From a virus: a stretch of DNA of 64,000 bases. A model generated the notes under the pieces. That model did not search any database. It was not told the origin of the DNA and was given only the letters and a program-made list of their open reading frames with translations. Where the stretch lies: positions 19,202-83,201 of IMG/VR virus record IMGVR_UViG_3300046499_000680; one strand, 5' to 3'. Positions 14,989 to 34,919 of this stretch are shown here, piece after piece. A program made the position numbers and the translations under genes. Every line of letters begins with the position of its first letter. Within the stretch, counting starts at the first letter, position 1.

Positions 14989-14999
14989 AAGGACAAGCG

Positions 15000-15719
15000 A
15001 TGCCGACCAACAAGAACTGGTGGGAATACGACGAGCTGCCCTCGGGGGAGCCGTACGACTGGGTAGGTCAGTCACACGGGGACTCCGCCGCCGCGCGCGG
15101 TGACTCGCCCTACGACAACCTCGACTTCCACCTCGACCTCGGCTGCGGCACCCTGCCCAAGGCCCGGCTGGGGATCGACCGCTTCCCCGGCAACGGGGTC
15201 GGGATGCTGCTGGACCTCGACGCGATGATCCCGGCGTCCTTCGGGACGCTGGACAGCGACGGCGAGAAGGTCCTTCAGCGCACGCTGGAAATGTTCAACC
15301 AGATGGCGCTCGGCGGCGAGCGGTTCACCACCGGCCTGCCGTTCCCGACCGGCTCGATCGAGTCGATCATCAGCCACCACATGATGGAGCATCTGAGCAG
15401 CCGGGGATTCATCGCCCTGATTGACGAGTGCCACCGCGTGCTGAAACCCGGCGGCATCCTGCGCGCGATCACGCCGCTGTTCCCGTCGCGGTCGGCGGTC
15501 GAGGACCCCGATCACAAGCTCTGGATCATGGAGGGGACGTTCGAGACCTTCTGCGGCGCCCCCGACGGCTCGCACTGGCACGAATCGTTCTCGCGGCCCT
15601 ACACCGAGAGCCGCTTCGAGATGGTGGACAAGGACTTCACCGCGCCCGTGTCGCCGGAGGAAGCCTGGGGCGACAACGACGTGCGGGAGATTCGCGTCGC
15701 GCTAAGGAAATACGAGTAG
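15000..15719 (+). CDS. SAM-dependent methyltransferase (239 aa)
   Basis: ATG at 15000 follows AAAGGA. Class I fold landmarks: FHLDLGCGTLPKA (SAM loop, about 43-55), an Asp-ending second strand (GIDRFP), SHHMMEHL and HRVLKPGGILR. Between two glycosyltransferases, it is the kind of enzyme that O-methylates sugars in phage glycosylation cassettes; the substrate is inferred. Its TAG is followed directly by the next ATG. Confidence 0.8.
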   Translation: MPTNKNWWEYDELPSGEPYDWVGQSHGDSAAARGDSPYDNLDFHLDLGCGTLPKARLGIDRFPGNGVGMLLDLDAMIPASFGTLDSDGEKVLQRTLEMFNQMALGGERFTTGLPFPTGSIESIISHHMMEHLSSRGFIALIDECHRVLKPGGILRAITPLFPSRSAVEDPDHKLWIMEGTFETFCGAPDGSHWHESFSRPYTESRFEMVDKDFTAPVSPEEAWGDNDVREIRVALRKYE

Positions 15720-16460
15720 ATGGACATATCCCTCCTGATAACGACGCACCAGCGCGCCCACCTGCTCGAACAGAGCCTGGACCGCCTGCTGGGGCTGACG
15801 TTGCCCGCCGAGCTGATCGTCGTGGACGACGGCGGCGACGACGCGACGCCGGAGATCGTCGCCGAGTTCGGCACCCGATCGGGAGTGGAGACCACCTACA
15901 TCTACACGCACAACCCCGGCGCCCAGCTCTGCTCGCACGCCCGCAACGTCGGGATCAAACGGGCGAAGTACGACTGGATCGTGACCTCGGAGCCGGAGCT
16001 GTGTTTTCGCACCGACGCGCTGGCGCAGTTCCCGGAACTCCAGTCGCGACATCCGAAGATGGTCATCTCGACCGGCCGAGTCTTCTTCGCCCCGGACGGC
16101 GCGGCGCCGGTCTTCGAGGGCGAGCCGGGCTGGGAGGTGGCCCACGTCTGGACCGCGCCGCACGCCGCGCTCTGGAAGCGGGAGTGGCTGCTGGCGGTCG
16201 GGGGCTGGGACGAGGGCTTCCCCGGCGCCTGGGGCTGGGATGACACCGACCTGCTGACCCGGCTCCGGCTCAGCGGCCACGGCCAGTACATCGCCCCGGA
16301 GATCGAGGCGGTCCACCTTTGGCATCCGCTCGGCGGCGACACCGACTCCCAGAACGAAGAATATTTCCGGGCAAGGTCGTTCATCGTTGACGAGTCAGAC
16401 CTGACCGATCTGGTCGCGAATAAGGAGGGGGAATGGGGAATCGCAAAACCCCGGCCGTAG
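15720..16460 (+). CDS. Family-2-type glycosyltransferase (246 aa)
   Basis: Starts MDISLLITTHQRAHLLEQSL; IVVDDGGDD is the nucleotide-binding strand, SHARNVGIKRAKYDWIV the following helix, and WGWDDTDLLTRL the C-terminal acidic motif. It overlaps the next gene by 28 nt. Second transferase of the cassette. Confidence 0.8.
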   Translation: MDISLLITTHQRAHLLEQSLDRLLGLTLPAELIVVDDGGDDATPEIVAEFGTRSGVETTYIYTHNPGAQLCSHARNVGIKRAKYDWIVTSEPELCFRTDALAQFPELQSRHPKMVISTGRVFFAPDGAAPVFEGEPGWEVAHVWTAPHAALWKREWLLAVGGWDEGFPGAWGWDDTDLLTRLRLSGHGQYIAPEIEAVHLWHPLGGDTDSQNEEYFRARSFIVDESDLTDLVANKEGEWGIAKPRP

Positions 16461-17128
16461 ACCCGGCCGAGAAGTTCTACGCCGACCAGCTTCAGGCGGA
16501 GGTCGATACCTGGTGCATCGAGGACGAGGACCGGCGCCATGAGAAGTTGCAGCGCGAGCGCATCCGGCATCCGAAACTGATCCGGGACCTCAAACTCGAC
16601 CAGCTCGACACCCACCTGATGGACGTGCTGGAGATCGGCGGCGGCCCCTGCCCGGTCACCGACCTGCTGGAGTTCGACACGCGGATGGTGGTCGATCCCA
16701 ACACCGACGACTATGCCCGCTACTTCCCCCTCAGCGAAACCGAACACTTCACGATGCGCGTGGAAGAAATGGGCGACGACTTCGAGGAGCGCTTCGACCT
16801 GATCGTCTGCACCAACGCGCTCGACCACGTTCAGATTCCGGTGGCGGCCGTGGACCGCATCCGCAAGATGGTGAGGCCCGGCGGCTACGTGGCGATCATG
16901 TGCGCCGAGAACAACGCACTCACCAACCCCCACCCCTGCCACACTCACAACCTGACGGCGAAGCAACTGCATCGCTGGTTGGACCCTGAGTTCGAGACCT
17001 GCTGGGAGTTGAACTTCGCCGAGCATGGTTACCGCTACGGGTGGGTGGAATACCAGGGCAAACGCGGCCAGCCAGCCTTCGCCTTGCTGATGCGCAACTG
17101 TGCTGGATACCCCGAGAGGAGACCCTGA
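16433..17128 (+). CDS. SAM-dependent methyltransferase (231 aa)
   Basis: Starts within the previous gene's end. VLEIGGGPCPVTDLL is the SAM loop, MVVDPNTDDYA the second strand, FDLIVCTNALDHVQIP the fourth strand and MVRPGGYVAIM the fifth. The N-terminal about 60 residues are an added charged helix region. It is not closely similar to the cassette's other methyltransferase, so two distinct methyl acceptors are plausible. Confidence 0.8.
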   Translation: MGNRKTPAVDPAEKFYADQLQAEVDTWCIEDEDRRHEKLQRERIRHPKLIRDLKLDQLDTHLMDVLEIGGGPCPVTDLLEFDTRMVVDPNTDDYARYFPLSETEHFTMRVEEMGDDFEERFDLIVCTNALDHVQIPVAAVDRIRKMVRPGGYVAIMCAENNALTNPHPCHTHNLTAKQLHRWLDPEFETCWELNFAEHGYRYGWVEYQGKRGQPAFALLMRNCAGYPERRP

Positions 17129-17868
17129 TGTTTGCCACCGCCTGCGTCCTGAGCTACGAACGGCCCGACTTCCTCAAACAGTCGATCGAGACCATGATCG
17201 CGAACGCCGACTGGCCGCTGGAGATCATCGTCCACGACGACGGCTCCCGCGACCCTCGCGTCAACGCCCTGCTCCAAGCCCTCCTCGCTGAAGGGAAAGT
17301 CTCGACGGTGATGCTCAACGCCCCCGGCCACAACGAGGGCCAGGGCATCGCGCTCAACCGGATGTTCAACGCCGCGCAGGGCGACCCGATCATCAAGCTG
17401 GACCAGGACCTGGTTTACCAGCCGGGCTGGCTGCGCGAGTCGGTCCACGTCCTCGAAGCCAACCGGGCGCGGATGCAGGACCCGAACAACCCGCTGGAGG
17501 GCGAGCCTGCGATCGGCGCGCTCGGCCTGTTCCGGTACCCGGCCGAGCCGGTGCGCTACGAGGACATGTTCATCCAGCACTGGGGCGGCGAGTGGGAGGA
17601 GTGCAAGGATTTCGTCGGCTCGGCGATGGTCATCCCCCGCGATGCCTGGGAGGCATTCGGCCCCTTCGACCACCACTCCGACGCCTTCGCCGAGGACCGC
17701 GAATTCAAGATGAAACTGCGGACTGAAGGGCTGGCGCTGGCGCTCCCGAGCGGCGGCGATCTGGTCGTCAACGTCGGCTTCGGCGTCGGTCCGTCAACCG
17801 TCGTCGTGGACCACGGCACCGTCGCCGGAATCCACCACGGACCACACATCATCGGAGGAGGAGCATGA
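17128..17868 (+). CDS. Family-2-type glycosyltransferase (246 aa)
   Basis: ATG at 17128 after GAGAGGAG, overlapping the upstream TGA. ACVLSYERPDFLKQSIET, IIVHDDGSRDPR and IIKLDQDLVYQPGW (DQD = DxD metal-binding motif) define the GT-A fold; AFAEDREFKMKL is the acidic acceptor motif. It overlaps the next gene (ATGA). Confidence 0.85.
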   Translation: MFATACVLSYERPDFLKQSIETMIANADWPLEIIVHDDGSRDPRVNALLQALLAEGKVSTVMLNAPGHNEGQGIALNRMFNAAQGDPIIKLDQDLVYQPGWLRESVHVLEANRARMQDPNNPLEGEPAIGALGLFRYPAEPVRYEDMFIQHWGGEWEECKDFVGSAMVIPRDAWEAFGPFDHHSDAFAEDREFKMKLRTEGLALALPSGGDLVVNVGFGVGPSTVVVDHGTVAGIHHGPHIIGGGA

Positions 17869-18800
17869 ACACTGCCGTCGTCATCCCGGTGGGGCCGGGC
17901 CGCCTGGAGAACCTGGTGCAGGTCCTTCGCTGCCTCTCCCAGCAGACCGTCAAACCCGATCTCGTCGCCGTCATCTGCGACGGCCCCGAGGCCGCCTTCG
18001 AGGTCGATGGCGCCTATGACATCCCGCTCGCGGTCCTCCAGTCGAGCAAGCATGAGCCGGGCGAGGAGCAGCCACGCAACATCGGCGTCCGGCTCGTCCG
18101 CGATCTGGAAGGCCAGGGCAACCAGACCTTCAGCCACGTCTGGTTCCTCGACAGCGACGTGATCGTGGGGCCTGACTGCCTGGAGATGTACGAGGCGGCG
18201 ATGCAGGCCGAGCCGATCGACCGAGTGATGGTCGGCCCCTACGACTGGATGCCGCCCGGCGTCCGCGAGCCGATGCCCGACCTGAAGAATGACCCGCGCT
18301 GGGTCAGCTTCGACACGCAGGAGCCGTGGGAGATGCTGCGCAACGATCTGTCTGCGGGGCTGGCCTGCTTCTCCGGCAACCTGATCTGGCCGATCGCGGA
18401 GTTCGAGCGGGTCGGCGGCTTCTGGAACGACCTGCACCACGGCCGCTGCGAGGACGGCGAGCTGGGCCTGCGCGCGGTCTCGATGCAGGTCCCGATCAGC
18501 TACGTCAAAGCCGCGCGGGGCTGGCACCTCTACCACGACTTCGACCCGGAGGTGGTAAAGGCTCGCAACGCCCGCGACGTGCCGATGCTCAACGAACGCC
18601 ATCCGTGGGTCGAGGGCGCCGGGCTGTTCGTGGAGGACGCCGACGGCAAACGGTTCTCGGTCAGATGTCCCAACTGCCGTTGCGAGTTCCCGTCGTCGCA
18701 AATCTGGGCGCACAAGGCCGACTGCATCACGCCCGGCGAAGACGAGCCGATCCCGGATGACGCACCTCGCGATTGGGGCGAGGGCGAGGGTCCGAAGTGA
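17865..18800 (+). CDS. Glycosyltransferase with C-terminal zinc-finger-like tail (311 aa)
   Basis: NTAVVIPVGPGRLENL, VAVICDG, a DxD in VWFLDSDVIV and GRCEDGELGLR show a GT-A transferase. After residue about 262 comes CPNCRCEFPSSQIWAHKADC, a Cys2-His-Cys finger-like unit, then an acidic tail; such an appendix is unusual on a glycosyltransferase and may dock it to a partner. Confidence 0.8.
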   Translation: MNTAVVIPVGPGRLENLVQVLRCLSQQTVKPDLVAVICDGPEAAFEVDGAYDIPLAVLQSSKHEPGEEQPRNIGVRLVRDLEGQGNQTFSHVWFLDSDVIVGPDCLEMYEAAMQAEPIDRVMVGPYDWMPPGVREPMPDLKNDPRWVSFDTQEPWEMLRNDLSAGLACFSGNLIWPIAEFERVGGFWNDLHHGRCEDGELGLRAVSMQVPISYVKAARGWHLYHDFDPEVVKARNARDVPMLNERHPWVEGAGLFVEDADGKRFSVRCPNCRCEFPSSQIWAHKADCITPGEDEPIPDDAPRDWGEGEGPK

Positions 18801-19864
18801 ACGAGGAGCTGGACATCTCGCGCGACGTGCTATTCGTCGGCCTCGGGGCCTCGCCGGTCTGTTACTACCGGGCGATGCTCCCGGCGATGGCCCTCGGCGC
18901 CGACTGGATCGGGCTGAACGGCGAGCCGCCGAAACTGGGCTGGGCGACCGGCCTGGCGAAGGACGAGAACGGCGTGCCGCAGTCGGCGATGCCGGACCTG
19001 TTCCGCTACAAGATCGTCGTCCTCCAGCAGCCGCAGGGACCGAACTGGGTGAAGCTGATCCGTGGCCTGCGCGAGGCTGGGGTGAAAGTGATCTTCGAGA
19101 TTGACGACTACCTCCACGGGATCAAGCACCTGGAGGATCACGACTGGTCGGACAAGTTCGACAACGAGGTGCTGAATCGCTACGAGGAAGCGATGAAAGC
19201 GTGCGACGCGCTGATCGCCTCGACGGAGTGGATCAGGGGCAACTACTCCCACTTCAACAAGCACGCCTTCCTCTGCCAGAACGGCATCGACCTGGGCCGC
19301 TACAAACTCACTCGCCCCAAACGCGACACGGTGAACGTCGGGTGGGCGGGGGCGACCGGGCACCTGAAAGCCATCACCCCCTGGCTCCAGCAGCTCGCCA
19401 ACGTGATGCAGGCCAACCCCAACGTCAACTTTGTCAGCATCGGGCAGACCTTCGCCGACGGCTTCAAACCCCACTTTGGCGAGGAGCGGTCGGTGGCGGT
19501 GCCGTGGGCCGCGATCGAGCAGTACCCCAGCGCGATGACCATGTTCGACATCGCGCTGGCGCCGGGCGGCTCCGGCGGCTGGTGGCGCGGCAAGTCCGAC
19601 CTGCGCTGGCTGGAGGCGGGCGCCCTCGGCATCCCCATCATCGCCAACCCGGAGGTCTACCCCGAAATCGAGGACGGCGTGACCGGCATGTTGGCGCGCA
19701 ACCCCGAAGACGTGGCGGAAAAGCTGTTCGGCCTGATCGGCGACAAGAGGCTGCGAGAGAAGGTCGGCGAGCAGGCCCGCGAGTTCATCACCGAGAACCG
19801 GAGCATGAAACAGGTCCGGGAGCAGTGGGTGCAGGCGTTTATGGCCGTCGTCAGCGCTGAGTAA
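18797..19864 (+). CDS. GT-B-type glycosyltransferase (355 aa)
   Basis: GTG at 18797 overlaps the previous TGA. The C-terminal half has VNVGWAGATGH, FDIALAPGG and LRWLEAGALGIPIIANPEVYPE followed by DGVTGMLA, the nucleotide-sugar-binding half of GT4-like enzymes. The N-terminal half has IVVLQQPQGPNW and VIFEIDDYLHG. It ends the sugar cassette. Together with the three GT-A type enzymes it could build a short branched or methylated glycan. Confidence 0.85.
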   Translation: MNEELDISRDVLFVGLGASPVCYYRAMLPAMALGADWIGLNGEPPKLGWATGLAKDENGVPQSAMPDLFRYKIVVLQQPQGPNWVKLIRGLREAGVKVIFEIDDYLHGIKHLEDHDWSDKFDNEVLNRYEEAMKACDALIASTEWIRGNYSHFNKHAFLCQNGIDLGRYKLTRPKRDTVNVGWAGATGHLKAITPWLQQLANVMQANPNVNFVSIGQTFADGFKPHFGEERSVAVPWAAIEQYPSAMTMFDIALAPGGSGGWWRGKSDLRWLEAGALGIPIIANPEVYPEIEDGVTGMLARNPEDVAEKLFGLIGDKRLREKVGEQAREFITENRSMKQVREQWVQAFMAVVSAE

Positions 19865-20111: not shown

Positions 20112-20134
20112 CTACCTTTCCCATGCTGCGAAAC

Positions 20135-20194
20135 GGGCTGTGGCCTCGTCCCTCCGAAGGTGGGGGGCATCCGAGGCTGACGGCCCCTTTTTTT
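20135..20194 (+). terminator. Intrinsic terminator/attenuator abutting the sigma-like gene
   Basis: Arm 20135-20148 (GGGCTGTGGCCTCG) pairs with 20172-20186 (CGAGGCTGACGGCCC) with small bulges, and is followed by seven T (20188-20194). The ATG of the sigma-like gene follows the T tract with no gap, so the element could end the sugar operon and also gate transcription of the sigma-like gene. Confidence 0.7.
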
Positions 20195-20815
20195 ATGCAC
20201 GCTCAGACCGCATCAGACCCGAAGCTAATCCGCCGCTATGAAGGTGTGGTGCGAACGACCGCCTCGATGACTGTGGAACGGTGCGAGGAAGAATTCGAGG
20301 ACATCTGCCAGCTCTTTCGGATCAAGGTGTGGATGGCCTTACTGAGCTATGACCCTGCGAAGCTGACCAACGAAAAACCTGACGCCAAGGGTCGTACTCC
20401 TCTGGACAGGTACGTCTTCGCCTGCATCAAAAATCAGCAGAAGGACCTCGAAAAGAAAGTGAAGCACGCCCACCGAGTGACCTATATCGAGGGTCTGGAC
20501 AAGGGGCACGGTGAGCGGTTCGAGGCAGAGTTCCTGGCGGTCTCCGACGAAACGATGTTCATCGCCGCCGAAGACATCGCCCCGCTGATCCCCTCGACGC
20601 TGGACGAGCGCGAGCGCCGGATCGTCACCCTGCTCTACATGGACTTCGACAACGGTGAGATCGGCGACCGGCTCGGCATCAAACGGAAGCAGGTCGCGAC
20701 GATCATCCGGGGCATCCGGGAGAAGCTGGCCGACTGGGCGCCCACGGGCTGGCGGTCGGCGACGGAGCCGCCCCCGCTGGCCCCCGCGTCCGAGCCGATG
20801 CCGATCGCCGCCTAG
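20195..20815 (+). CDS. Sigma-70-like factor (206 aa)
   Basis: The N-terminal part (EEEFEDICQLFRIKVWMALL ... RYVFACIKNQQKDL) fits sigma region 2 helices. Residues about 142-185 (LDERERRIVTLLYMDFDNGE, then IGDRLGIKRKQVATIIRGI) are a region-4 helix-turn-helix. The tail is Pro/Ala-rich. No Shine-Dalgarno is visible because the T tract of a terminator abuts ATG 20195; a later start near the GTG codons at about 20249 is possible. It may direct phage late transcription. The stop shares CTAG with the convergent gene. Confidence 0.65.
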   Translation: MHAQTASDPKLIRRYEGVVRTTASMTVERCEEEFEDICQLFRIKVWMALLSYDPAKLTNEKPDAKGRTPLDRYVFACIKNQQKDLEKKVKHAHRVTYIEGLDKGHGERFEAEFLAVSDETMFIAAEDIAPLIPSTLDERERRIVTLLYMDFDNGEIGDRLGIKRKQVATIIRGIREKLADWAPTGWRSATEPPPLAPASEPMPIAA

Positions 20816-22190: not shown

Positions 22191-22465
22191 AGTGGGATCA
22201 GGAGGAAGCGTTTGGTGTGGTTCAGCTCGATCCCCGGCGCGCACTGGCCGCAGAAGATCACCAGCTTGCCGCTCTCCAGGTCGCGGAACATGAACGCGCC
22301 TGCCGTCTTCTCCTCGTCCAGCTCCTGCTGGCAGGTGGAGTTGGCGCAGAGCTTGATCCCGCCGTAGGGCGGCAGCAGCTTCCCGAGCTGGGACCCCGGC
22401 TCGGCGTCGTAATCCTCGGGGACGTGAATCTGGAAGCCGTCGGCGAATCCGTCGTCGGGGGTCAT
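22187..22465 (-). CDS. Zinc-ribbon protein (92 aa)
   Basis: C-A-N-S-T-C and C-G-Q-C, about 30 residues apart, form a four-Cys ribbon around residues 40-75. ATGA overlaps on both sides tie it to the integrase and to the transglutaminase-like gene. Function unknown. Confidence 0.6.
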   Translation of the reverse strand: MTPDDGFADGFQIHVPEDYDAEPGSQLGKLLPPYGGIKLCANSTCQQELDEEKTAGAFMFRDLESGKLVIFCGQCAPGIELNHTKRFLLIPL

Positions 22466-23469
22466 CGCGCACCTACCGCTTCTTCAAACTCCCGTTCGGA
22501 CTTCGCGATCGCCTCGTGCAGGTCGTCGCGGACCAGCTTGGTGTAGGCGAGGGTCTGCTGGAGGTTCGAGTGCCCGAGCAGTTTCTGCACGATCTCCAGC
22601 CGCCGCGTCGTCCGCAGCCACTCGGTCCCGGCGGTGTGCCGGAAGCGGTGGAGCTGCCACTGGCTGGGCTGGTGCGGGATCGGGTGGCCGATCGTCCGCA
22701 TGAGACCTTTGAATCGGGTGTAGCGCATCGGTTTCAGCGCGTGGACCTTGTTCGCCAGCGACAGCCAAGGGGTGTCGTGGGTCGGCCCGAGCTGGGTGCG
22801 CAGCTCGATCCAAGCTCGGACGGCGGCGCGGCTCGTCGCGGTGTGCGGCACCTCCCGTTGCTTGTCGCCGTCGTTGTCACCCTTGGCGTGCTTCACCACG
22901 ATGTAGGCGTTGTCGTAGTGGATGTCATCGAGGCTGGCCCGGAAAATCTCCTGGCGCCGGAGACCACAGTGCAGGGCGAGGGCGATGATCGCCTCCATCT
23001 GCACCCGCATCGCGTGGGTCCTGATCCGGCGGAACGGCGAGGTCCCCCGGCCGAATCGCGCCCAGAATTTCTCGTCCACCTTCGGCCACGCTTCATCGAA
23101 CTCCTTCCAGAACTGGGCGAGTTCTTTCTTCGAGTACGGGCGCGGCTTCGACTTGCCGGTGGACTGCCGGGGGGCGCCGATCTGCTGCACCGCGACCAGC
23201 CGCTCGGCGTCGATCACTTTGGCGCCCCATCCCCAGGAGAACCACGGCCGGAGCATGTTCAGCTCCTTGCGGATCGTGTTGACGTGGCAGCCTTCGTCGG
23301 CGCGGTGGGCGAGGAAAGCGCGCACGTCCTGGTCGTCGCAATCCTCCGGTGCTTTGCCCGCGAGGTCGCCCATGCCGGTGATCGCCCGAATCTGTTCCTG
23401 GCGACGGCCGGGGCTGATCCCTTCGTACTGCTGATAGTCGCGCTCGAAGCGTTCGATCGTGGTGGTCAT
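22462..23469 (-). CDS. int: Tyrosine integrase (335 aa)
   Basis: Start at 23469 chosen for GGAGA five nt upstream; an ATG at 23517 is possible. An N-terminal SAM-like core-binding region (NTIRKELNMLRPWFSWGW) is followed by the catalytic domain: R171 in HCGLRRQEI, H274 and R277 in LHRFRH, H300 in LLGHSN and nucleophile Y309 in TLAYTKL. All key residues are present, so it should be active and the phage temperate. No excisionase was recognised. Confidence 0.93.
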   Translation of the reverse strand: MTTTIERFERDYQQYEGISPGRRQEQIRAITGMGDLAGKAPEDCDDQDVRAFLAHRADEGCHVNTIRKELNMLRPWFSWGWGAKVIDAERLVAVQQIGAPRQSTGKSKPRPYSKKELAQFWKEFDEAWPKVDEKFWARFGRGTSPFRRIRTHAMRVQMEAIIALALHCGLRRQEIFRASLDDIHYDNAYIVVKHAKGDNDGDKQREVPHTATSRAAVRAWIELRTQLGPTHDTPWLSLANKVHALKPMRYTRFKGLMRTIGHPIPHQPSQWQLHRFRHTAGTEWLRTTRRLEIVQKLLGHSNLQQTLAYTKLVRDDLHEAIAKSEREFEEAVGAR

Positions 23470-23558
23470 GGTCTTCTCCAAGTGTCGGGTCATCCTACAC
23501 ATAGGGCCGCCGAGCAATGACGCCCGACGGCCCTGGAACTGCGGTATTTGCGCCCGGC
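23470..23558 (-). promoter_or_regulatory. Integrase upstream region with hairpin
   Basis: On the leftward strand a TAGGAT -10-like hexamer (23498-23493) precedes the integrase. AGGGCCG (23503-23509) pairs with CGGCCCT (23528-23534), which may end the upstream winged-helix gene or be an operator. Confidence 0.35.
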
Positions 23559-26380: not shown

Positions 26381-26583
26381 TTCCGCCCCTTCGGGTAGGT
26401 GTGGAGCCTGTCAGTCGGTATGTCGGCGGCGTAGGCGGCTCTCCGGTTGTCGAGGTAGGTGATCCTCGCCCGGCGGTAGCGGGACTCTCCGTAGCCGAAG
26501 CTGTAGACGTAATCGACCCGCGCTGAGCGACCGTCGTGCCTGACCTTCCTGCCCTTCCGAATTCGCGATTCCTTGGTCGTCAC
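26377..26583 (-). CDS. Small basic protein (68 aa)
   Basis: Arg/Tyr-rich and beta-like (RVDYVYSFGYGESRYRRARI). ATGA overlaps with both neighbours; just downstream of the RuvB-like gene in the same transcript. Confidence 0.5.
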   Translation of the reverse strand: MTTKESRIRKGRKVRHDGRSARVDYVYSFGYGESRYRRARITYLDNRRAAYAADIPTDRLHTYPKGRK

Positions 26584-27722
26584 GGTCGTTCTCCTAGTAG
26601 CTCGCGGGCGCGCTCGACGCCCTGGTCGGTGAGGGTGCGACCGCCGTGGCCCACCTGCACGAAGCCACGCTCGATCAGGTACGGCTCCACGCGCAGCGCG
26701 ATCGCCTTGCTGTCTCGGCTCTTGCCGATCGCGGTGGCGATGGTGCCGACGCTGGCCTGGTAGCGAATCTCGTCCTTCACTTTGCGACCGGCGCGGGTGT
26801 AGAGGAAGGTCAGCATCCCCTGCATGTCGGCGGTCAGGCCGTCGGCGGTGACGCCGCTCACGTCCAGCACCTCGTCGGCGACGGCCACGCTGATCGTGTT
26901 GTCGGGGCCGACCAGGGATTCGCCGTTCAGGATGAAGTTATTCACCTCGCGCGGCACGCCACGGGAGGCGTTGGCGAGCCTCACCGCCGCCGAGACCGTG
27001 ATCTGCACACCCAGCCGTTCAGCGTTCCAGACCGCCATAACGGCGATGTCGTCGGCGCTGTAGCGCTCCAGCCGAGGCCGGATCGGGAAGCGGTTGATGA
27101 AGGCGTCCGGCAGCATGCCCTCGTCGGTGGTGGTGCCGACGATCGTGATCGACGGGTAGGGCAGCACGCCGGTCCCGGTGGTGATCGTTCGATCCTCCAT
27201 CACCTCGTACAGGACCTCCGGCGTCATCGCCGAGCTGCGCCCGCGCCGGTCGCCCGCACCCTGCTGGTGAATCTCCTCGATCCGCAGCAGGTCGCCGTCC
27301 TTCATGGTCTCGCGCAGGAGGAGCAGCGTTTCATGGGAAACGGGGGCCTCGACGGCGAACACATCCACGTCGAGTTCGTTGGCGATGACGTGCGAGAAGG
27401 TGGACTTGCCGGTGCCGCTCGGCCCGATCAGGAGGATGTGGTCGAGCGGACGGTCCCGGTTCGCGGCGGCGGCGACGAACCGCTGCATCGTCCTCACCGC
27501 CCGTTCCTGCCCGACGATCTCAGCGAACGTGGCGGGCCGCAGGGGGTTGGAGGTCCGTTCGGCGGCCGTGACGGGCGACGGGGCCGCTGAGGGCGCCTGG
27601 TGGCCTCCCAGCGGTGCTACACCGTACGCCGTAGCACCTGGCGCGAAGTCAGCACGGCGAGCCGCGAGTGCGGCGCCGTCAGCAAGTGCAGAAGTGACCG
27701 TGCGGTGGGGCAAAGTTCTCAC
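26580..27722 (-). CDS. RuvB-like AAA+ branch-migration ATPase (380 aa)
   Basis: GTG at 27722 is given; a TTG at 27713 has ideal spacing from the AGGAGGT at 27727-27721. LRPATFAEIVGQERAVR opens the domain; Walker A G-P-S-G-T-G-K-S (100-107); the Walker B strand reads RIEEIH where RuvB has DEIH; sensor TTTDEGMLPDAFINRFPI. The C-terminal 60 residues (SKAIALRVEPYLIERGFVQV ... LTDQGVERA) match the RuvB winged helix. No RuvA or RuvC gene is evident. It may act in recombination or be repurposed within the leftward module. Confidence 0.75.
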   Translation of the reverse strand: MRTLPHRTVTSALADGAALAARRADFAPGATAYGVAPLGGHQAPSAAPSPVTAAERTSNPLRPATFAEIVGQERAVRTMQRFVAAAANRDRPLDHILLIGPSGTGKSTFSHVIANELDVDVFAVEAPVSHETLLLLRETMKDGDLLRIEEIHQQGAGDRRGRSSAMTPEVLYEVMEDRTITTGTGVLPYPSITIVGTTTDEGMLPDAFINRFPIRPRLERYSADDIAVMAVWNAERLGVQITVSAAVRLANASRGVPREVNNFILNGESLVGPDNTISVAVADEVLDVSGVTADGLTADMQGMLTFLYTRAGRKVKDEIRYQASVGTIATAIGKSRDSKAIALRVEPYLIERGFVQVGHGGRTLTDQGVERARELLGERP

Positions 27723-27895
27723 CTCCTACGGAAGTTTACGCAGGTTCCAAGGAAACATGCGTTAGATGGGCGAAAGGATGTAGGCTCGAACAGCGCCGAG
27801 CCGGTTAGGAACAGCGAGCAGCCGGGGTTCGACTCCCCGGTGGGGCGGTGGGCTACCGTTGCCAGCTCGACCAGTACGGTCGGCTCGGCGTCCAG
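27723..27895. promoter_or_regulatory. Intergenic region with tandem hairpins, one resembling a tRNA T-arm
   Basis: A leftward TTGGAA with a -10-like TAGGAG precedes the RuvB-like gene. GGCTCG (27783-27788) pairs with CGAGCC (27797-27802). CCGGGG (27822-27827) and CCCCGG (27835-27840) flank the 7-nt loop TTCGACT, as in a tRNA T-arm. No full cloverleaf fits. It may be a tRNA-derived attachment core or a terminator for the gene ending at 27896. Confidence 0.4.
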
Positions 27896-28870
27896 CTAGT
27901 CGTTGGTCCGCAGCACCAGGGCCTCTAGCTGCTGATCGAGCAGGCCCAGCTTGATCTCCATCTCCTCCAGCGAGGTGCCGAGGAGGCCGACGTAGCGTTC
28001 ACGATGCTCGCCGAGGAATTTGCGCTGGGCGAGGATGTTGCCGACGCGATCCTTGCGCATTTTCCGTTCGTCGTTCTTCAGCGCCTCGGTCACGTCGGCC
28101 ATCAGCTCGTCTATCTCCGAGCTGACGTTGGCGTTGAAGTGGCGTTCGATCAGTTCGCGCTGGCCCTCCGCCGACACCGTGGGGATCAGGTGCAGCTCGG
28201 CCCTGTCGATGCCGTACAGCTCGGTGATGACGGTTTCGAGGGAGTCGAGGTCGTCCTTGCCCGCCTTCGGCACGAAGTAGACGCCGCTGCCGCCGCTCCG
28301 CTTGCGGATGTTGACGGCGCCGATCTCTTTCAGCAGCTTGCGGATGCCGGAGCGGACCCGCGAGCCGGGCACCTTTTTCGCGTTGCGATCGAAGTGGTTC
28401 TGGATCAGGTCGAACAGGCCGGAGAGGTCCGAGGCATCCATGTCGGTCAGCCTGTCGATCGGCTCCCAGGACATCAGTTCGGTGTTCTTGTCGAAGGTCA
28501 GCTTCATCGCCTTCGGGTGGTCGATCAGCTCGTTGCGCGCGTCACGGGCGAGCTTGGTCACCTGGTAGACGACGCGATCTTTGTCCTCGACCACGGGGTC
28601 CACCTCGATCTCGATGCGCCGACTCTGCGCGTCGGTTCGACGGCTTCGGCTCTCGATCGACCGCGCCGCGACCTGGAATGCGTTCTTCGCGGAACGGGAG
28701 TTGGGGATTATGTCGTGCGGCAGTCCCTCCGAAATCCACAGCCGGTTGAGCTTGCTGGCGGACACGGGTTCGTCGGGCACGGTGAACAGGGCGTAGAAGC
28801 CCATGATGTGATCCAGGGTGATCTCGCCGCCGGGGGTGACAGCGACCACACCTTTCGGTACGCGAGCCAC
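27896..28870 (-). CDS. Hypothetical protein of the MoxR/VWA gene set (324 aa)
   Basis: Starts MARVPKGVVAVTPGGEITL. Mixed fold in the first 230 residues and a C-terminal coiled coil (about 240-320). No enzymatic motif. One-nt overlap with the next gene upstream. Its placement beside the VWA and AAA+ genes suggests a dedicated partner or substrate adaptor. Confidence 0.6.
   Translation of the reverse strand: MARVPKGVVAVTPGGEITLDHIMGFYALFTVPDEPVSASKLNRLWISEGLPHDIIPNSRSAKNAFQVAARSIESRSRRTDAQSRRIEIEVDPVVEDKDRVVYQVTKLARDARNELIDHPKAMKLTFDKNTELMSWEPIDRLTDMDASDLSGLFDLIQNHFDRNAKKVPGSRVRSGIRKLLKEIGAVNIRKRSGGSGVYFVPKAGKDDLDSLETVITELYGIDRAELHLIPTVSAEGQRELIERHFNANVSSEIDELMADVTEALKNDERKMRKDRVGNILAQRKFLGEHRERYVGLLGTSLEEMEIKLGLLDQQLEALVLRTND
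28692..28703 (+). repeat. Dispersed 12-bp element GAACGGGAGTTG
   Basis: Variant copy (first base G) inside the leftward gene. Confidence 0.4.
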
Positions 28871-29319
28871 TATGGGCCTCCTTCGGTTGATGGTTCGGGG
28901 ACGATTTCCTTACCGCATTCGGGGCAGTTGTCCGATTCGCGGTTGACGATGGACTCCACCGTCGTCATAAAGCCGTGGTTGCAGTGCGGGCACGAACACC
29001 AGACCAGTGCGATGCCGCCTTCGGGCGGCTGCTGGCCTGGTTTGAGGCTGCCGGATGCAAGCGACCGCACCGTGCTGGCAGAGGCGAGGATCGGCCGTGA
29101 CGCCTGTTCGGCGCCGGGCTGGGGCAGGGTCACGTTGCCGAGACCGATGCGTTCCATCACCTTGTCGATCATCGGGCCGACGGCGAGTTCGTAAAGCGCC
29201 TCGGGTCCCACGGTGAGCATCAAGTCCTCGATGACCTCGCGATCCCAGTCGTCCGCGCGGTCGGCGATGACCGCTGCGATCTCGTCGTAGATCGTCCAGC
29301 CGTCGCCGAACCGGCCCAT
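28870..29319 (-). CDS. Hypothetical protein with C-terminal zinc ribbon (149 aa)
   Basis: ATG at 29319. Acidic helical N-half; the C-terminus has C-S-C-P-H-C and C-P-E-C, about 25 residues apart, a probable zinc ribbon. Same leftward operon. Confidence 0.6.
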   Translation of the reverse strand: MGRFGDGWTIYDEIAAVIADRADDWDREVIEDLMLTVGPEALYELAVGPMIDKVMERIGLGNVTLPQPGAEQASRPILASASTVRSLASGSLKPGQQPPEGGIALVWCSCPHCNHGFMTTVESIVNRESDNCPECGKEIVPEPSTEGGP

Positions 29320-29320
29320 G

Positions 29321-29818
29321 TCAGGCGCCCTCGACCTGCGTGAAGCGCACCCACGGCGAGTTCGATGCGCCGGGCGCAATTTTGAAGTCGGTCTCGGGGT
29401 CGGCGATGCACTGCGCGGCGACGTGCATGATCTGTTCCTTACGTTCGGCGGAGACTCGCTCGCCTTCCGCAAACATGCCGTGGATCAGCGCATCCAAGTT
29501 GGCGTACGCGGTGATCTTCCGACTGGGGCGGATGACCATGAAGATGTACTCGGGTGACAGTGGGCTGATCGGGAACTTCGCCCGCAGGTCGCGGCCTATG
29601 TCGGAGTCGGACATGTCGGTCGATCCGACAAGTTTCACCCACTCCGTATCCCAGGCGTCACCCTCGGGGTTGTTCTCCGTATCCGTCTTCGGGGACATGA
29701 CCAGGATCGTGCTGTCCTCGTCGTCGCCGGTCAGCACGACGCCCATCACCTTGCCGCTGCCATCCCACTTCGGGCCTTCGAGAACGTCGCCCGGTGCCAG
29801 CTCGTCGCGCCAGCTCAT
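29321..29818 (-). CDS. Hypothetical protein (165 aa)
   Basis: The N-terminal half is beta-rich (PGDVLEGPKWDGSGKVMGVV), the C-terminal half helical. TGATG-type overlap with the VWA gene stop. No motif recognised; a module member by position. Confidence 0.6.
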   Translation of the reverse strand: MSWRDELAPGDVLEGPKWDGSGKVMGVVLTGDDEDSTILVMSPKTDTENNPEGDAWDTEWVKLVGSTDMSDSDIGRDLRAKFPISPLSPEYIFMVIRPSRKITAYANLDALIHGMFAEGERVSAERKEQIMHVAAQCIADPETDFKIAPGASNSPWVRFTQVEGA

Positions 29819-31449
29819 CAGGTAATCGCCTCAGCGAGGTGCTGGGTTGCGTCATTCGTTCCGGCCAGGTCCCAAGCCGCAACCGTGTCGTCGCACATCT
29901 GCTCCAGGTAGGCGTTGGATTTCATGCCGATGGCGACACCGTGCAGCCGCACGCCGCGTTCCCGCAGCTCGTCGCGCAGGGCTACGTCGTCCTCCTGGAA
30001 GTAGTCCATGCCGTCCGTCATCAGTACGATGTCGGCGGTCTTGAACTCGGGCACCATGTCGATCAGCTCTTTTGCTTTCTCGACGCCGCCGGTCACATCG
30101 GTGCCGCCGTGGAACATGTGCGATGCGAAGTCCACGATGCGCAGCGGGTTGATCGGCTCTTTTGCCATGAAGTCCCACCGCTTGGTCTGGCCGTACGAGC
30201 TGAACTCGACGGCGGCGGCGTCACGTTTCTCCCGCTTGGCGATCGCGATGAAGCTGATTGCCAGCGAGCGCGCCCAGACGTTGGGCATGCCGTTCATCGA
30301 CCCTGAGCCGTCCAGGCAGACGATGATCGGCCCGCGCCCGGCCTCGGCGTAGCCACGGGTCTCATACTGGACCAGCGACCGTTCGTAGAAGCGCCGGATG
30401 AAGTCGCGGCGAAGTACCGGATGGCGCAGCTTCACCTTCTCGCTCGGGAGCAAGAGCGGCAGGTCGTCGCCGAGCTTCACGTCGATGATCTCCTCGCGAC
30501 CACCAACAACACGGTTCGTTCGCCGGTAGCGGATGTCACGTTGCATCCGGCCGATCATTTTCGCCATGTCAAACAGCTCGGGATTTTCCTTCCACTTCTG
30601 CGCCAGTTCGATCATTTCGTCGGGCGACAGCTTCTGCCCGCTGCCCGGCTCGGTGCCGGGCAGGCTGCCGATGGCGTCAGTGGCTTCCTGCGCGCCTTCG
30701 AGTGCCTGGTCGATCGCTTCGATGGCACCGACGCCGATGCCTTTCTGCTGCTGTTCGGCCTGTTCTTCGGCGAGGCCCTGGCGCGCTTGCGTCTTCTGCT
30801 GCGCCTGTTCCTTGATCGCCTGCTTAAGTTCGGGGTTGACTTCGCCGCTTTCCTGGTGTTCCTGCGCGGCCTGCTGGCGCATCTGTTCGAGGGCTTCCTG
30901 CGCCCCCGTGATCTGCTGCTCCTGGTCGGACATCCTCTTGGCGCCGACCACCATCTCTTTCATCTGCTCCTGAAGCGACTCGCGCAGACCCTCAGACATG
31001 TTGATCGTGGCGAACGCGGCCGAGATTTCGTCGTGGCGCGTGTCGGGCCGCATCGCCTGGAATTTCTCGCTGGCGATGATCTGCTGAAGGATGCGCCGGT
31101 TCAGGTCGCGCGAGGGCTTGAACTCGCCCTGGTTCTTCAGCTCCGGCTCCTGAAGCGTGTGCAATGCGCGGAAGGTGTCGCCGAACAGGTTCTGCCAAGC
31201 GACGTACTCCAGAACCTTCTCGCGTTCCTCGTCGCTCAGTTCGATGGCTTTGCCCTCGTCGTCCGTGAGGTTGTCAAGGTCCACCTCGGGCACATCGAAC
31301 ATGGCGCCGCGAAAGTGTGACGCGCGTTCGGTCATGTCTTCCAGCACCCCGTCATCAAGGCGGTCGTGCCGGACTACGCTGTCGCTCAGCGCGGGAAGGT
31401 TCTTGGTGCGCTTGAACAGGTCATACACACGCTGCGACATGTCCGTCAT
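29818..31449 (-). CDS. VWA-domain protein, CoxE/ViaA-like (543 aa)
   Basis: Residues 1-175 are a helical N-terminal domain, 175-300 a Gln/Glu-rich coiled coil and linker, and 370-540 a von Willebrand A domain with an intact MIDAS: D380-x-S382-x-S384, T450 and D479. VWA proteins of this layout work with MoxR AAA+ ATPases as chaperone-like complexes; a MoxR gene lies 0.6 kb upstream in the same operon. The presence of all metal ligands argues for function. The client is unknown. Confidence 0.85.
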   Translation of the reverse strand: MTDMSQRVYDLFKRTKNLPALSDSVVRHDRLDDGVLEDMTERASHFRGAMFDVPEVDLDNLTDDEGKAIELSDEEREKVLEYVAWQNLFGDTFRALHTLQEPELKNQGEFKPSRDLNRRILQQIIASEKFQAMRPDTRHDEISAAFATINMSEGLRESLQEQMKEMVVGAKRMSDQEQQITGAQEALEQMRQQAAQEHQESGEVNPELKQAIKEQAQQKTQARQGLAEEQAEQQQKGIGVGAIEAIDQALEGAQEATDAIGSLPGTEPGSGQKLSPDEMIELAQKWKENPELFDMAKMIGRMQRDIRYRRTNRVVGGREEIIDVKLGDDLPLLLPSEKVKLRHPVLRRDFIRRFYERSLVQYETRGYAEAGRGPIIVCLDGSGSMNGMPNVWARSLAISFIAIAKREKRDAAAVEFSSYGQTKRWDFMAKEPINPLRIVDFASHMFHGGTDVTGGVEKAKELIDMVPEFKTADIVLMTDGMDYFQEDDVALRDELRERGVRLHGVAIGMKSNAYLEQMCDDTVAAWDLAGTNDATQHLAEAIT

Positions 31450-32041
31450 CCGGCGCTCCTTTGTAGTTCGATTTGTGCGGGTCGAAGCCCGGCAGGATCA
31501 GCTCGTAAGCGTCCTCGTCGGGCATCGTGAAGCTGAAGTCGATGACGATGGGGATGCCCGTTCGCTCGGCACCAACAGCGTCGGTCAGGTACTCACGGTA
31601 CAGTTCCGCCGCGCGCCAACGCGGCAGGGGCAGGAAGTACGTTGCGCGATCGGCCCAGAGCTTCGAGAACTCGGGGATCGCCTCGCCGAAAATCTTCTCG
31701 ACATCGAACGGCTGGTCGCACGTTCGGCGCAGGACCACGATGCGATCGGGATCGGCGCCCGCGTCCTCGGGGTCCGGCTCCACGCAGTCGTCACAGTCGC
31801 AGTCTTCGGTGGTGCAATCCTCGTCTAGCGACGATCCGCTCCAGCCGCACGCCTGGCACTCGTAGCCGTCGTCCGTGACATCGACGTTGCCCTGGTAATC
31901 GGGTTCGGCGTTGCGGTCAACCTCGCCGTCGTCATCAAGCGTGTAGCGGATCAACTCCGTCGCCAGCTCGCGCTGGACCAGCGAGCCGCTGTCTGCTGGC
32001 TCCGAGCAGTGCGGGCAGCCGACAAAGGCGCGTTCGCACAT
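31421..32041 (-). CDS. Zinc-ribbon protein between MoxR and VWA (206 aa)
   Basis: ATG at 32041, four nt after the MoxR stop. C-E-R-A-F-V-G-C-P-H-C and later C-Q-A-C-G-W make a ribbon; then a very acidic Asp/Glu/Cys stretch (residues about 70-95, with CDCDDC) and an alpha/beta C-terminal half. It overlaps the VWA start by 29 nt. A likely structural partner of the ATPase complex. Confidence 0.65.
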   Translation of the reverse strand: MCERAFVGCPHCSEPADSGSLVQRELATELIRYTLDDDGEVDRNAEPDYQGNVDVTDDGYECQACGWSGSSLDEDCTTEDCDCDDCVEPDPEDAGADPDRIVVLRRTCDQPFDVEKIFGEAIPEFSKLWADRATYFLPLPRWRAAELYREYLTDAVGAERTGIPIVIDFSFTMPDEDAYELILPGFDPHKSNYKGAPDDGHVAACV

Positions 32042-32045
32042 CGGA

Positions 32046-33257
32046 TCAGCTCCCGATGCCGAGCAGCTTCTTGACGCTCTCGCGCGAGCCGGTGATGTCC
32101 TGGGCGAGCTGGTCGAGTTCGGCGGTCTCATGTCCTTCCTCTTTGCCGTTGTCGATCGCATCGCCGACGCGCTGGCTCAGCTTCTTGAGCATGTTCGACA
32201 CCACGCCGATGTTGCCCATCAGTTCGCTGTCGGGCACGCTGCCGTCGGCGGGCATTTTCTGCTGCAAGTCGCTCAGCGCGGCCTGCTGCTCGTCAAACTC
32301 GCCGCGCAGTTTGGCCGCCTTCTTGGCGACGGCGCCTGCGTAGTCCAGCGTCAGCTCGTACGCAGTGCTGTGATCTTCGGGGTCGCTCCAAAGCACATGC
32401 TCGAAGACCTTCATGTCCTCGACCGACACCTCAGTGCGGCCGGTCAGCGCCGCCGCCGCGAGCATCAGCTTGACACCCTCGAACAGGCGCCTGGCGCTGA
32501 TCGTCAGGTTCTCCGACTCAGCGCGGGAGCGCAGTTCGACCAGCGCCTTTTTCACGTTCGGCGGGACTTCGACCTCCGTGGCCGTCGCCTGTATGGCCGC
32601 GATCTCCTCGGAGGTGACCAGCGTGGGCTTGGCGACGATCGGCTCGCCGCGTCCACGGGCGAGCTGGCCGTCGAGTACCTGCGTCAGTCCTTCGCTGGTG
32701 CGGACATGCTCGACCATCTTGGTGATGCCGAAGCGGTCGCGGAAGGCCCGCAGGTCGTCGCGGTCGGTGCCGGGCAGCTCGTTCGATGCACCCACGCAGG
32801 TCCACAGCGGGACGGTCATCGAGTGCCCGTTGTTGTGGAAGATGCGCTCGTTGATGATCGACAGAAGCGCGTTCAGCACGGTGCTGTTCGCCTTGAAAAT
32901 CTCGTCCAGGAAGGCGACGTTCGCCTCCGGGAGCTTGTCGCGCGTGATCCGCCGGAATTCGTCGTTCTCCAGCGCCGCGAGCGAGACCGGGCCGAGGACC
33001 TGATCGCTCGGGGTGTCCTTCGCCAGCAGCACCTCGAAAAGCGAGGCGTCGGCGATGTGCGACATGAATTCGCGGATCAGGAGGGACTTCGCCACCCCTG
33101 GTTCGCCGATGAACAGCGGGTGCGAGCGGGCGATGATCGAACGGACCAGCAGGTCGATCTCGACTTCGCGCTCGGGCAGCCCAGCTTTCAGCTCGGCGAT
33201 GACGTTCTGGAGTTTGTCGGCGGGCGTCACCTTCGTCTTCGTCGCGGTCGCGGCCAT
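32046..33257 (-). CDS. MoxR/RavA-like AAA+ ATPase (403 aa)
   Basis: Walker A G-E-P-G-V-A-K-S (51-58), Walker B VAFLDEIFK (114-122) and sensor region GASNELPGTDRDDLRAFRDRF are diagnostic for the MoxR family. The C-terminal 100 residues are a helical/coiled extension. MoxR proteins partner with VWA proteins to remodel or assemble complexes; the VWA gene is in the same operon. Confidence 0.9.
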   Translation of the reverse strand: MAATATKTKVTPADKLQNVIAELKAGLPEREVEIDLLVRSIIARSHPLFIGEPGVAKSLLIREFMSHIADASLFEVLLAKDTPSDQVLGPVSLAALENDEFRRITRDKLPEANVAFLDEIFKANSTVLNALLSIINERIFHNNGHSMTVPLWTCVGASNELPGTDRDDLRAFRDRFGITKMVEHVRTSEGLTQVLDGQLARGRGEPIVAKPTLVTSEEIAAIQATATEVEVPPNVKKALVELRSRAESENLTISARRLFEGVKLMLAAAALTGRTEVSVEDMKVFEHVLWSDPEDHSTAYELTLDYAGAVAKKAAKLRGEFDEQQAALSDLQQKMPADGSVPDSELMGNIGVVSNMLKKLSQRVGDAIDNGKEEGHETAELDQLAQDITGSRESVKKLLGIGS

Positions 33258-33263
33258 AGTGTG

Positions 33264-34013
33264 TTAATTCCTTCCGTTCGTTCGGGTCAACTGCGGATAA
33301 GGGAAGTCGGGTACCAAGCGCTTGACCGCGAGCTGCGTCAGCTCTTTCAGGTCGGTGCGCAGTTCTTCGCGGCCCTGCTCAATCAGCTTGTCACCATAGG
33401 CGCCGCCGTTCGAGGTCGGGCTACGCATGAAGGTCCCAAAGACCGGCGGAATCACGACCTCGCCGCGCTCGAAGTGATCGAGCTGGTGCGGCCAGTGTTC
33501 CTGCTCGGCATTGGCTTTCGAGCAGCACTCGCGCGGCTGCTCCCAGTTCTGCCATGCGGTGATGATCTTGTCCGCGTGGCGTCGAAGTTTCGCCGGATAG
33601 GTGGCGACGACTCGGGCGACGGCCGCGAGGAGCGCGGGGTCGATAGGCATCTCGCAACTCCCGTTGGGATTTACGTGCGCGCCGTGTGCGTACGGCACCA
33701 ACCCGTTCGCGGGATCGACCAACCAGGTCAATCCGCCCGCGCGCTCGATGCGCGCCGGAGTGAAGGTCGCTATTCGATCCAGGGTCACGTTCGTGAACCA
33801 GCCCTGATCGTTCGGCGAGCCTGGCCCGCGAAGGTCGATGGTCACGCCGTCGGGCCGGTACATGGCGATGATCGTGTCGTGCAGCTTCAGCCCGACCAGC
33901 TCGTCGGCGTAGTAGACCAGGCGCGTGTTCCGCGCGATCTTCTTGGTCGCCAACACCTCGCCGGACCGTTTGTGCTTCAGGGTCTCGACGGCATCGTTCG
34001 CAGTGGCAATCAT
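33264..34013 (-). CDS. Hypothetical protein (249 aa)
   Basis: Begins MIATANDAVETLKHKRSGEV. The N-terminal half is beta-rich (LVYYADELVGLKLHDTIIAM); there is a Cys pair ECC near residue 162. Contains a dispersed 12-bp element. First large gene upstream of MoxR; no family recognised. Confidence 0.6.
   Translation of the reverse strand: MIATANDAVETLKHKRSGEVLATKKIARNTRLVYYADELVGLKLHDTIIAMYRPDGVTIDLRGPGSPNDQGWFTNVTLDRIATFTPARIERAGGLTWLVDPANGLVPYAHGAHVNPNGSCEMPIDPALLAAVARVVATYPAKLRRHADKIITAWQNWEQPRECCSKANAEQEHWPHQLDHFERGEVVIPPVFGTFMRSPTSNGGAYGDKLIEQGREELRTDLKELTQLAVKRLVPDFPYPQLTRTNGRN
33655..33666 (+). repeat. Dispersed 12-bp element CAACTCCCGTTG
   Basis: Canonical copy inside the leftward gene. 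Confidence 0.6.
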
Positions 34014-34189: not shown

Positions 34190-34521
34190 CGTTCGGCCGC
34201 CTCTCGCAGCTCGCGCTCGGTCAGTTCGATGTCATCGGCCGGACGGGCGCGAAGCTGGTTGCACAGCTCGGCGAAGGCTCGGAAATACTCGGGGTTCCCA
34301 TCCAGCTCGCCCGGCTCCAGCAGCGAGCCTGCCACCTCGATCACGTCGCTCGCGCTCAGCACGCGCTCAGACTCGAAGTCGTCCTCTCTAAGCCCGTCTT
34401 CGATGGCGTCGGTGTCGCTGACGATCGCCTCGGGCACATAGCGCACCGTGCAGCCTTCGCTGCCCGTGAAGGTCTCGCCGTCGTTCAGCACGACGATCTC
34501 CGAATGGTCGGGGTGGTGCAT
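34186..34521 (-). CDS. Hypothetical acidic protein (111 aa)
   Basis: ATG at 34521 overlaps the upstream stop (TGATG); GGAGG lies upstream. Asp/Glu-rich, helical. Function unknown. Confidence 0.55.
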   Translation of the reverse strand: MHHPDHSEIVVLNDGETFTGSEGCTVRYVPEAIVSDTDAIEDGLREDDFESERVLSASDVIEVAGSLLEPGELDGNPEYFRAFAELCNQLRARPADDIELTERELREAAER

Positions 34522-34919
34522 CAGCGGAACCTCCGTTCGAGGTAGTGAGGATGGTTGAGCAGGAAAAGGTCGTGCATGAGGCACGTTCGCGGGAGGCGGG
34601 TGGAAGGTTCGCGCCCGTCGAAGATGCGCAGCAGGTCGGTGAAGACTTTGCACGACTTTGCAAAGTGGCCGCCGTCGGCGAGTTCGCGGCTCAGCCCGAT
34701 CGAGCAGGTCGCCAAATCGTATTCGGCGACGATCGACGGCGAGGCGAAGGCCGGGACGATCTGAGCTTCGACAGCACAGGCCGGGGGCGTTGCGTTCGCT
34801 GCCACGTTGTAGGCGAACTGAGCCGACGGCGACAGCGGCGCGGCGCGGGCCGTCGTCGCCAGCAGCAAGAGCATGAAGGCGCAGGCGCCTAGCGCGAAGA
34901 ATCGCTTGGCGGGCAGCAT
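34521..34919 (-). CDS. Secreted protein with Sec signal peptide (132 aa)
   Basis: MLPAKRFFALGACAFMLLLL followed by ATTARA-APL is a textbook Sec signal with an A-x-A cleavage site near residue 26. The mature about 106 residues have four Cys (in PACAV, ATCSI, KSCKV, RTCLM), suiting two disulfides outside the cytoplasm. TGATG coupling with both neighbours. An exported protein among phage intracellular genes suggests a surface or exclusion role in the lysogen or infected cell. Confidence 0.7.
   Translation of the reverse strand: MLPAKRFFALGACAFMLLLLATTARAAPLSPSAQFAYNVAANATPPACAVEAQIVPAFASPSIVAEYDLATCSIGLSRELADGGHFAKSCKVFTDLLRIFDGREPSTRLPRTCLMHDLFLLNHPHYLERRFR

Follow-up and report, generated by a model that had tools for sequence, protein, structure and literature searches.

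What does a viral genome gain from a MoxR AAA+ ATPase and a VWA protein encoded side by side, and which of the genes packed around them take part? The question is raised by the leftward genes at 26580-34013 of a 64,000-nucleotide stretch, here called the window, which covers positions 19202-83201 of the 83,201-bp IMG/VR virus record IMGVR_UViG_3300046499_000680. The original prediction had treated them as one mostly overlapping module and as a candidate for an undescribed conserved system. All of its members, namely a MoxR protein, a VWA protein, two Cys-ribbon proteins, three unknown proteins and a RuvB-like ATPase, were found in the window's list of open reading frames (ORFs), leftward and close-packed or overlapping. 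However, the true module is smaller than that. Judged from sequence comparison, its core is MoxR, VWA and a protein of the DUF6744 family, a RavA/ViaA-like trio conserved on phages and plasmids, and such a MoxR-VWA-DUF6744 unit appears to be so far undescribed.

The MoxR protein (32046-33257, minus strand), with its RavA-like AAA domain, would be the motor of the trio. It matched the Pfam models bpMoxR (1.6e-44) and AAA_lid_8 (5.7e-12) as well as phrog_19600 (1.6e-78). Its catalytic motifs, Walker A GEPGVAKS (K57), Walker B DE (118-119), sensor-1 N159, the arginine finger R175 and sensor-2 S254/R256, were intact and invariant among seven relatives, in agreement with the complete MoxR that had been predicted. 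In the profile search the closest solved structure was RavA (PDB, 9.9e-80), the next MoxR reaching only 5e-12, and a second profile comparison (1.6e-51) indicated that the AAA domain and the lid are homologous to those of RavA. The LARA and RavA C-terminal domains, both present in the Salmonella RavA used as a yardstick, were not found by Pfam in the window MoxR, and its score against the NCBIfam RavA equivalog (151.1 bits) lay far below the cut-off of 681.

The VWA protein (29818-31449, minus strand) is likewise ViaA-like: Pfam, PHROG and the structure model indicated a helical N-terminal half and a C-terminal VWA domain with a full MIDAS. It matched VWA_CoxE (2.6e-8) and phrog_24053 (7.9e-56), and the MIDAS residues D380, S382, S384, T450 and D479 (DxSxS...T...D), intact as claimed before, were invariant in 38 relatives. 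The ViaA profile matched the protein at 2.8e-25 and its C-terminal half aligned to ViaA at 1.4e-27, while the NCBIfam ViaA equivalog gave 89.5 bits, far below the cut-off of 500. For the predicted structure (mean predicted local distance difference test, pLDDT, 86) the best solved fold matches were the VWA domain of NorD (in NorQD) and the MIDAS domain of Rea1. Both are partners to AAA+ proteins, of the MoxR type or Midasin.

The earlier view of MoxR and VWA as a chaperone-type pair thus gains a definite relationship: the pair probably shares stock and way of working with RavA-ViaA, yet it is not RavA-ViaA. As in E. coli, the two genes are adjacent, and the AAA domain with lid, like the C-terminal half of VWA, is homologous to its E. 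coli counterpart. The trio differs in its MoxR, which has neither LARA nor the RavA C-terminal domain, in scores far under both equivalog cut-offs, and in the link of the pair to DUF6744 on phages and plasmids. NorQ-NorD and Midasin (Rea1/MDN1) share with the trio the closest VWA fold in the PDB and a full MIDAS, whereas their clients are nitric oxide reductase and ribosome assembly factors and no DUF6744 belongs to them.

The third gene was tied to the pair from three starting points. When IMG/VR was searched with aligned VWA proteins, 70 viral loci were obtained (a single-sequence VWA query of the same database returned no close relatives), and MoxR and DUF6744 lay within the fetched flanks in about 45 of them, a few matches being partial owing to contig ends or deletions. 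From the MoxR side, the full trio was held by 35 of 41 viral loci, about a dozen of whose contigs overlap the VWA-found set. From the DUF6744 side, about 1,040 whole genomes of three phyla were searched with the Pfam model (E <= 0.001), and the family proved rare (5/397 Actinomycetota, 14/399 Bacillota and 5/244 Cyanobacteria genomes). Fourteen independent bacterial genomes were over the cut-off with enough flank, three seed genomes being excluded, and in nine of these MoxR and VWA were encoded within 10 kb of DUF6744. We estimate that random placement in a 3-5 Mb genome would achieve this with a chance of about half a percent each, so the linkage is not due to chance.

The arrangement of the genes points in the same direction. 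All three were on the same strand in 77/77 trios checked, with a median gap of 4 nt between MoxR and VWA and of 65 nt to DUF6744. Four gene orders occurred among them: DUF6744-MoxR-VWA (41), MoxR-VWA-DUF6744 (28), MoxR-DUF6744-VWA (6) and VWA-MoxR-DUF6744 (2). Linkage that is kept despite shuffled order favours a shared function over mere common descent. In a 218,948-bp record (L056), DUF6744 lay about 8.5 kb from the MoxR-VWA pair. That a one-strand unit with shuffled order recurs in several bacterial phyla, on prophages, phages and plasmids of conjugative type, speaks for a genuinely functional complex, and we infer that the three proteins may also associate physically. Single ORFs joined a truncated DUF6744 to a truncated MoxR (L058:6955-7803) or to a truncated VWA (L072:9161-10891). 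These were rejected as true fusions, as each can be explained by one in-frame deletion and is probably the result of decay or assembly error.

The DUF6744 protein itself (27896-28870, minus strand), which its linkage suggests to be a dedicated third partner, had been counted among the unknown proteins. The products of 29321, 31421 and 33264 were indeed without significant family, but that of 27896 belongs to a named, though uncharacterised, one: it matched PF20529 at 1.6e-30 (106.6 bits against a gathering score of 27; model positions 17-312 of 314). Its structure model (pLDDT 90, predicted template modelling score 0.84) starts at the N-terminus with two helices, passes through a region of five strands and a helix-helix-hairpin segment, and ends in three long helices. 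Residues 146-201, which hold the conserved R173 and R189 and a GGxYFVP motif, resemble a winged helix in the model, and DUF6744 might possibly contact DNA. By sequence, matches to the PDB were only helical or weak, and strong matches to viral models were only to uncharacterised proteins, one from halovirus HVTV-1. DUF6744 looks adaptor- or client-like rather than enzyme-like. None of the 5.39 million papers in the searchable literature, whose scope does not extend to subscription papers and preprints, mentions it. The family is also found in haloarchaeal tailed viruses, for example as gene 29 of Haloarcula virus HCTV-1 (L009:6890-8071); the adjoining gene 30 had two helix-turn-helix-like matches.

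Since no His or Cys column was conserved at 40% or more across 101 DUF6744 members, a metal-binding DUF6744 was rejected. This absence also bears on the idea that the trio is a metal-insertion or enzyme-maturation chaperone like NorQD or CoxDE, acting for example on ribonucleotide reductase. Many cellular MoxR-VWA pairs have such a role, and in two viruses, HCTV-1 and Moorella phage MTATph1, DUF6744 does have a ribonucleotide reductase gene next to it. However, ribonucleotide reductase was not among the recurrent trio neighbours, and together with the missing His/Cys column this leaves metal insertion a very unlikely explanation.

How many of the other leftward genes belong to the system was decided by three close relatives (L204, L205 and L207), which were found by RuvB-like and MoxR scans and are contigs of unproven completeness. 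In L207, MoxR, VWA, DUF6744 and the RuvB-like gene (26580-27722 in the window) stand back to back and are followed by the integrase; in L204, the trio is followed by the RuvB-like gene and the integrase downstream. The conservation of gene order in relatives, on which the original prediction had staked its case, was therefore found in both. L205 (a 71 kb contig) carries both the RuvB-like gene and the integrase, whereas neither MoxR nor DUF6744 was found in any part of it. With contigs that may be incomplete, the main ground for this absence is the abutting of the flanks: the homologue (L205:9435-10019; 9.4e-14, and 4e-14 in a second comparison) of the window gene 34521-34919 (minus strand) directly abuts the RuvB-like gene and so shows where the trio, were it present, would have its left border. 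With L204 and L207 carrying the trio and L205 lacking it, the trio is best seen as a self-contained accessory cassette, the small genes being additions of the window's lineage.

These relatives also speak to the wider reading, in which all the leftward genes, the Cys protein, the zinc ribbon, 29321, 33264 and the RuvB-like ATPase among them, work as one system. In the window the genes do share one orientation and overlap, and the RuvB-like gene comes after DUF6744 in L207 and is also downstream in L204. However, the four small genes (31421, 29321, 28870 and 33264) are absent from L204 and L207 and have no homologue in the close relatives or elsewhere in the collected loci, 29321 and 33264 found no relative in the IMG/VR scan, and the RuvB-like gene persists in L205 without the trio. 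One working system of this size is unlikely, and the claim of a conserved system does not extend to these four products.

The carriers of the trio narrow its possible role. Named ones were Moorella phage MTATph1 and plasmids or plasmid-like contigs of Alicyclobacillus, Streptomyces, Nocardia, Prauserella and Pseudanabaena; further trio loci came from Heliorestis, one Planctomycetota assembly and one Gemmatimonadota assembly. Two of the plasmids, Nocardia NZ_CP133581 and Pseudanabaena NZ_CP112878, have genes for conjugation, while no terminase, portal, capsid or tail gene is annotated on them in the PLSDB gene tables, which are incomplete and were covered up to the last kilobase of each plasmid. 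Assembly of the virion, one of the roles first suggested for the module, therefore cannot be its general role. A virion-assembly chaperone does have published precedents, and was proposed for the MoxR-vWA pairs of Acidianus two-tailed virus and of group 2.2 jumbo phages (PMC7824862). Those pairs resemble the trio in being virus-encoded MoxR-VWA chaperone pairs, but the jumbo phage VWA is fused to a metallopeptidase and DUF6744 is not mentioned there (PMC7824862). In addition, only scattered virion or lysis genes were seen beside the trio, and phage 0305phi8-36 has its MoxR pair listed among non-structural genes (PMC2147016). We consider this role quite improbable. MoxR-VWA pairs had been known earlier from 0305phi8-36 (PMC2147016), the haloviruses Hardycor1/HVTV-1 (PMC7911831) and the jumbo phages (PMC7824862). 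In 0305phi8-36 and the haloviruses a virus-encoded MoxR/AAA and VWA pair is present as in the trio, but the available sections of the two papers recognise no third partner and assign no function (PMC2147016; PMC7911831).

The genes most often found next to the trio belong to DNA metabolism. Recurrent neighbours were a PD-(D/E)XK exonuclease, ligase, Sak4-type ATPase, uracil-DNA glycosylase, DNA polymerase A, DnaB/primase, SNF2 helicase and single-stranded DNA-binding protein, and dnaN, Rad52 and a resolvase turned up in individual records or lineages. Such neighbours favour a part in the replication, recombination or maintenance of DNA. We give not quite an even chance to the reading that the trio is a RavA-ViaA-type, ATP-driven remodelling chaperone of mobile elements, with DUF6744 as its third subunit, which acts on a nucleoprotein complex of the element. 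By analogy with RavA-ViaA, NorQ-NorD and Midasin, the MoxR ring would hydrolyse ATP and act by way of the VWA protein, and the metal-holding MIDAS of that protein would bind an acidic residue of the client. DUF6744 may serve as the dedicated adaptor or client of the pair, and the machine might pull on or rearrange a nucleoprotein complex on which replication, recombination or maintenance of the element's DNA depends. The window's further small proteins would be additions of its phage lineage.

Several observations weigh against such a chaperone. Haloviruses such as HCTV-1 carry DUF6744 with no trio-type MoxR detectable in the whole HCTV-1 genome. A fold search of DUF6744 against the PDB gave no solved relative at E <= 1e-3; its winged-helix-like part, a label read from the order of secondary structure, was not net basic on average (101 members). 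Early phage regions are rich in replication genes anyway, and our neighbour tallies are raw counts. Furthermore, the cassette in the window lies about 13 kb or more from a DnaB-like gene.

The main rival is a conflict system, in which MoxR-VWA would set a threshold and DUF6744 would sense or execute, either guarding the lysogen or plasmid host against other elements or countering host defence. Four MoxR-vWA ternary conflict systems have been described in bacteria, with VMAP, iSTAND, FtsH or a beta-propeller as the third component (Kaur et al. 2020, PMC7159879). The trio shares with them the plan of MoxR, VWA and a conserved third protein, and a match to the bpMoxR model, but since bpMoxR also matches RavA itself, such a match is not diagnostic of ternary conflict systems. 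The accessory nature of the trio (in L204 and L207, not in L205) would suit a conflict role. On the other hand, its third protein is DUF6744, VMAP, iSTAND, FtsH and beta-propeller being absent from the trio, and it occurs mainly on mobile elements. Pfam and PADLOC found no effector domain (nuclease, TIR, peptidase or membrane) in MoxR, VWA or DUF6744, and the neighbours are mostly replication and recombination genes. PADLOC gave only generic AAA and coiled-coil matches, by which a known defence system was rejected.

Conflict also draws on MoxR relatives that have another partner. In a quick MoxR tree, whose deep support is low and in which the window sits on a long branch, the DUF6744 label required 11 changes, compared with about 41 after shuffling. 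DUF6744 was missing from three sizeable clades: Streptomyces loci, a Myxococcota set and a viral set. The Streptomyces loci (within L122-L158, e.g. L152 and L156) are nested inside the plasmid-borne actinobacterial trio lineage, and some of their MoxR-VWA pairs are on contigs over 10 Mb, that is, on chromosomes. No conserved third gene was found beside them, and these chromosomal pairs were possibly domesticated from a plasmid. In the viral set, a retron-type reverse transcriptase with intact YADD (RVT_1 8e-23; nearest PADLOC model RT_XIII, 1e-70) was encoded 0.2-1.3 kb downstream of VWA in all contigs and in two later-found ones, and the stretch between may be coding. The contigs are L042 (8646-14975), L011, L014, L016, L017, L018, L019, L020, L023, L028, L043, L225 and L227; the first eleven have in common a glycosyltransferase-like protein of about 450 aa further downstream. 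DUF6744 was not found in the five retron-type records searched whole. A hidden DUF6744 in this clade was also rejected, as the gene there is a reverse transcriptase and its profile comparison with DUF6744 fails. No paper was found in the literature that joins retron, MoxR and vWA as one system.

The pairing of a similar MoxR-VWA with a retron-type reverse transcriptase in this sister clade speaks for conflict, retrons being a class of defence. Set against the absence of an effector domain and the difference of DUF6744 from the four published third components, it leaves a conflict system a possible but doubtful explanation. The reverse transcriptase is itself a nucleic-acid protein, and for this reason we counted it for the remodelling chaperone. 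Its pairing with such a core might also lead to a tentative wider view, in which the core serves proteins that handle nucleic acids as a general switch or loader driven by ATP and has a swappable third subunit, DUF6744 in most phages and plasmids and the reverse transcriptase in one viral clade. The trio would then make a fifth class of MoxR-VWA ternary systems, possibly one of conflict between elements. The trio gives DUF6744 its first functional context and connects RavA-ViaA, a family still poorly understood, with mobile DNA; with the retron-type variant, it offers a testable case for MoxR-VWA pairs as exchangeable drivers of different nucleic-acid-handling partners.

The remaining genes of the run fit the earlier description in part. 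The RuvB-like AAA+ ATPase (minus strand) is divergent and is linked to the trio in this phage family while separable from it. RuvB_N (5.2e-26) and RuvB_C (1.1e-6) were above the Pfam cut-offs and the lid domain below, and the NCBIfam RuvB models gave 174.8 of 282 bits and 138.8 of 299 bits. The protein is 56-59% identical in L204 and L205. It has an N-terminal extension of about 60 aa, and its Walker B reads EE rather than DE (IEEIHQ), as also in L204 and L205, while L207 has DE. Distant relatives of it are found near the trios of L050 and L015.

The two Cys-ribbon proteins were also seen, both lineage-specific and on the minus strand. One (31421-32041), between MoxR and VWA, is Cys-rich, gave no Pfam, PHROG or PADLOC match, and likely starts at an inner ATG at about 32041, just past the MoxR stop. 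The other (28870-29319, 149 aa) is a CxxC...CxxC zinc ribbon with weak zinc-ribbon Pfam matches (DUF4379 4.6e-4). The 165-aa product of 29321-29818 (minus strand) had no Pfam or PHROG family match, and the 249-aa product at the head of the operon (33264-34013, minus strand), without known family, matched phrog_19389 only weakly (7.1e-4) and had no relative in L204, L205 or L207; both are lineage-specific too.

The conserved cassette ends, on its far side, in a tyrosine integrase (22462-23517, minus strand; Phage_integrase 1.4e-19), homologues of which accompany the RuvB-like gene in L204, L205 and L207; it fits a temperate phage. Beside this end, 20123-20815 encodes a small sigma-factor-like protein (Sigma70_r4 2.1e-5) that is kept in L204 and L205. 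Rfam searches of the window and of three retron-type loci gave no match. On the plus strand, opposite to the cassette, 13951-19864 holds a run of genes that look by eye like glycosyltransferases and methyltransferases; it is largely shared with L204, and its density is unusual in an 83-kb phage. A DUF5131 protein, of a phage-associated family, is encoded at 12509-13480 (3.5e-71), and 56794-57432 (plus strand) encodes collagen-like G-x-y repeats, probably a fibre component of the virion.

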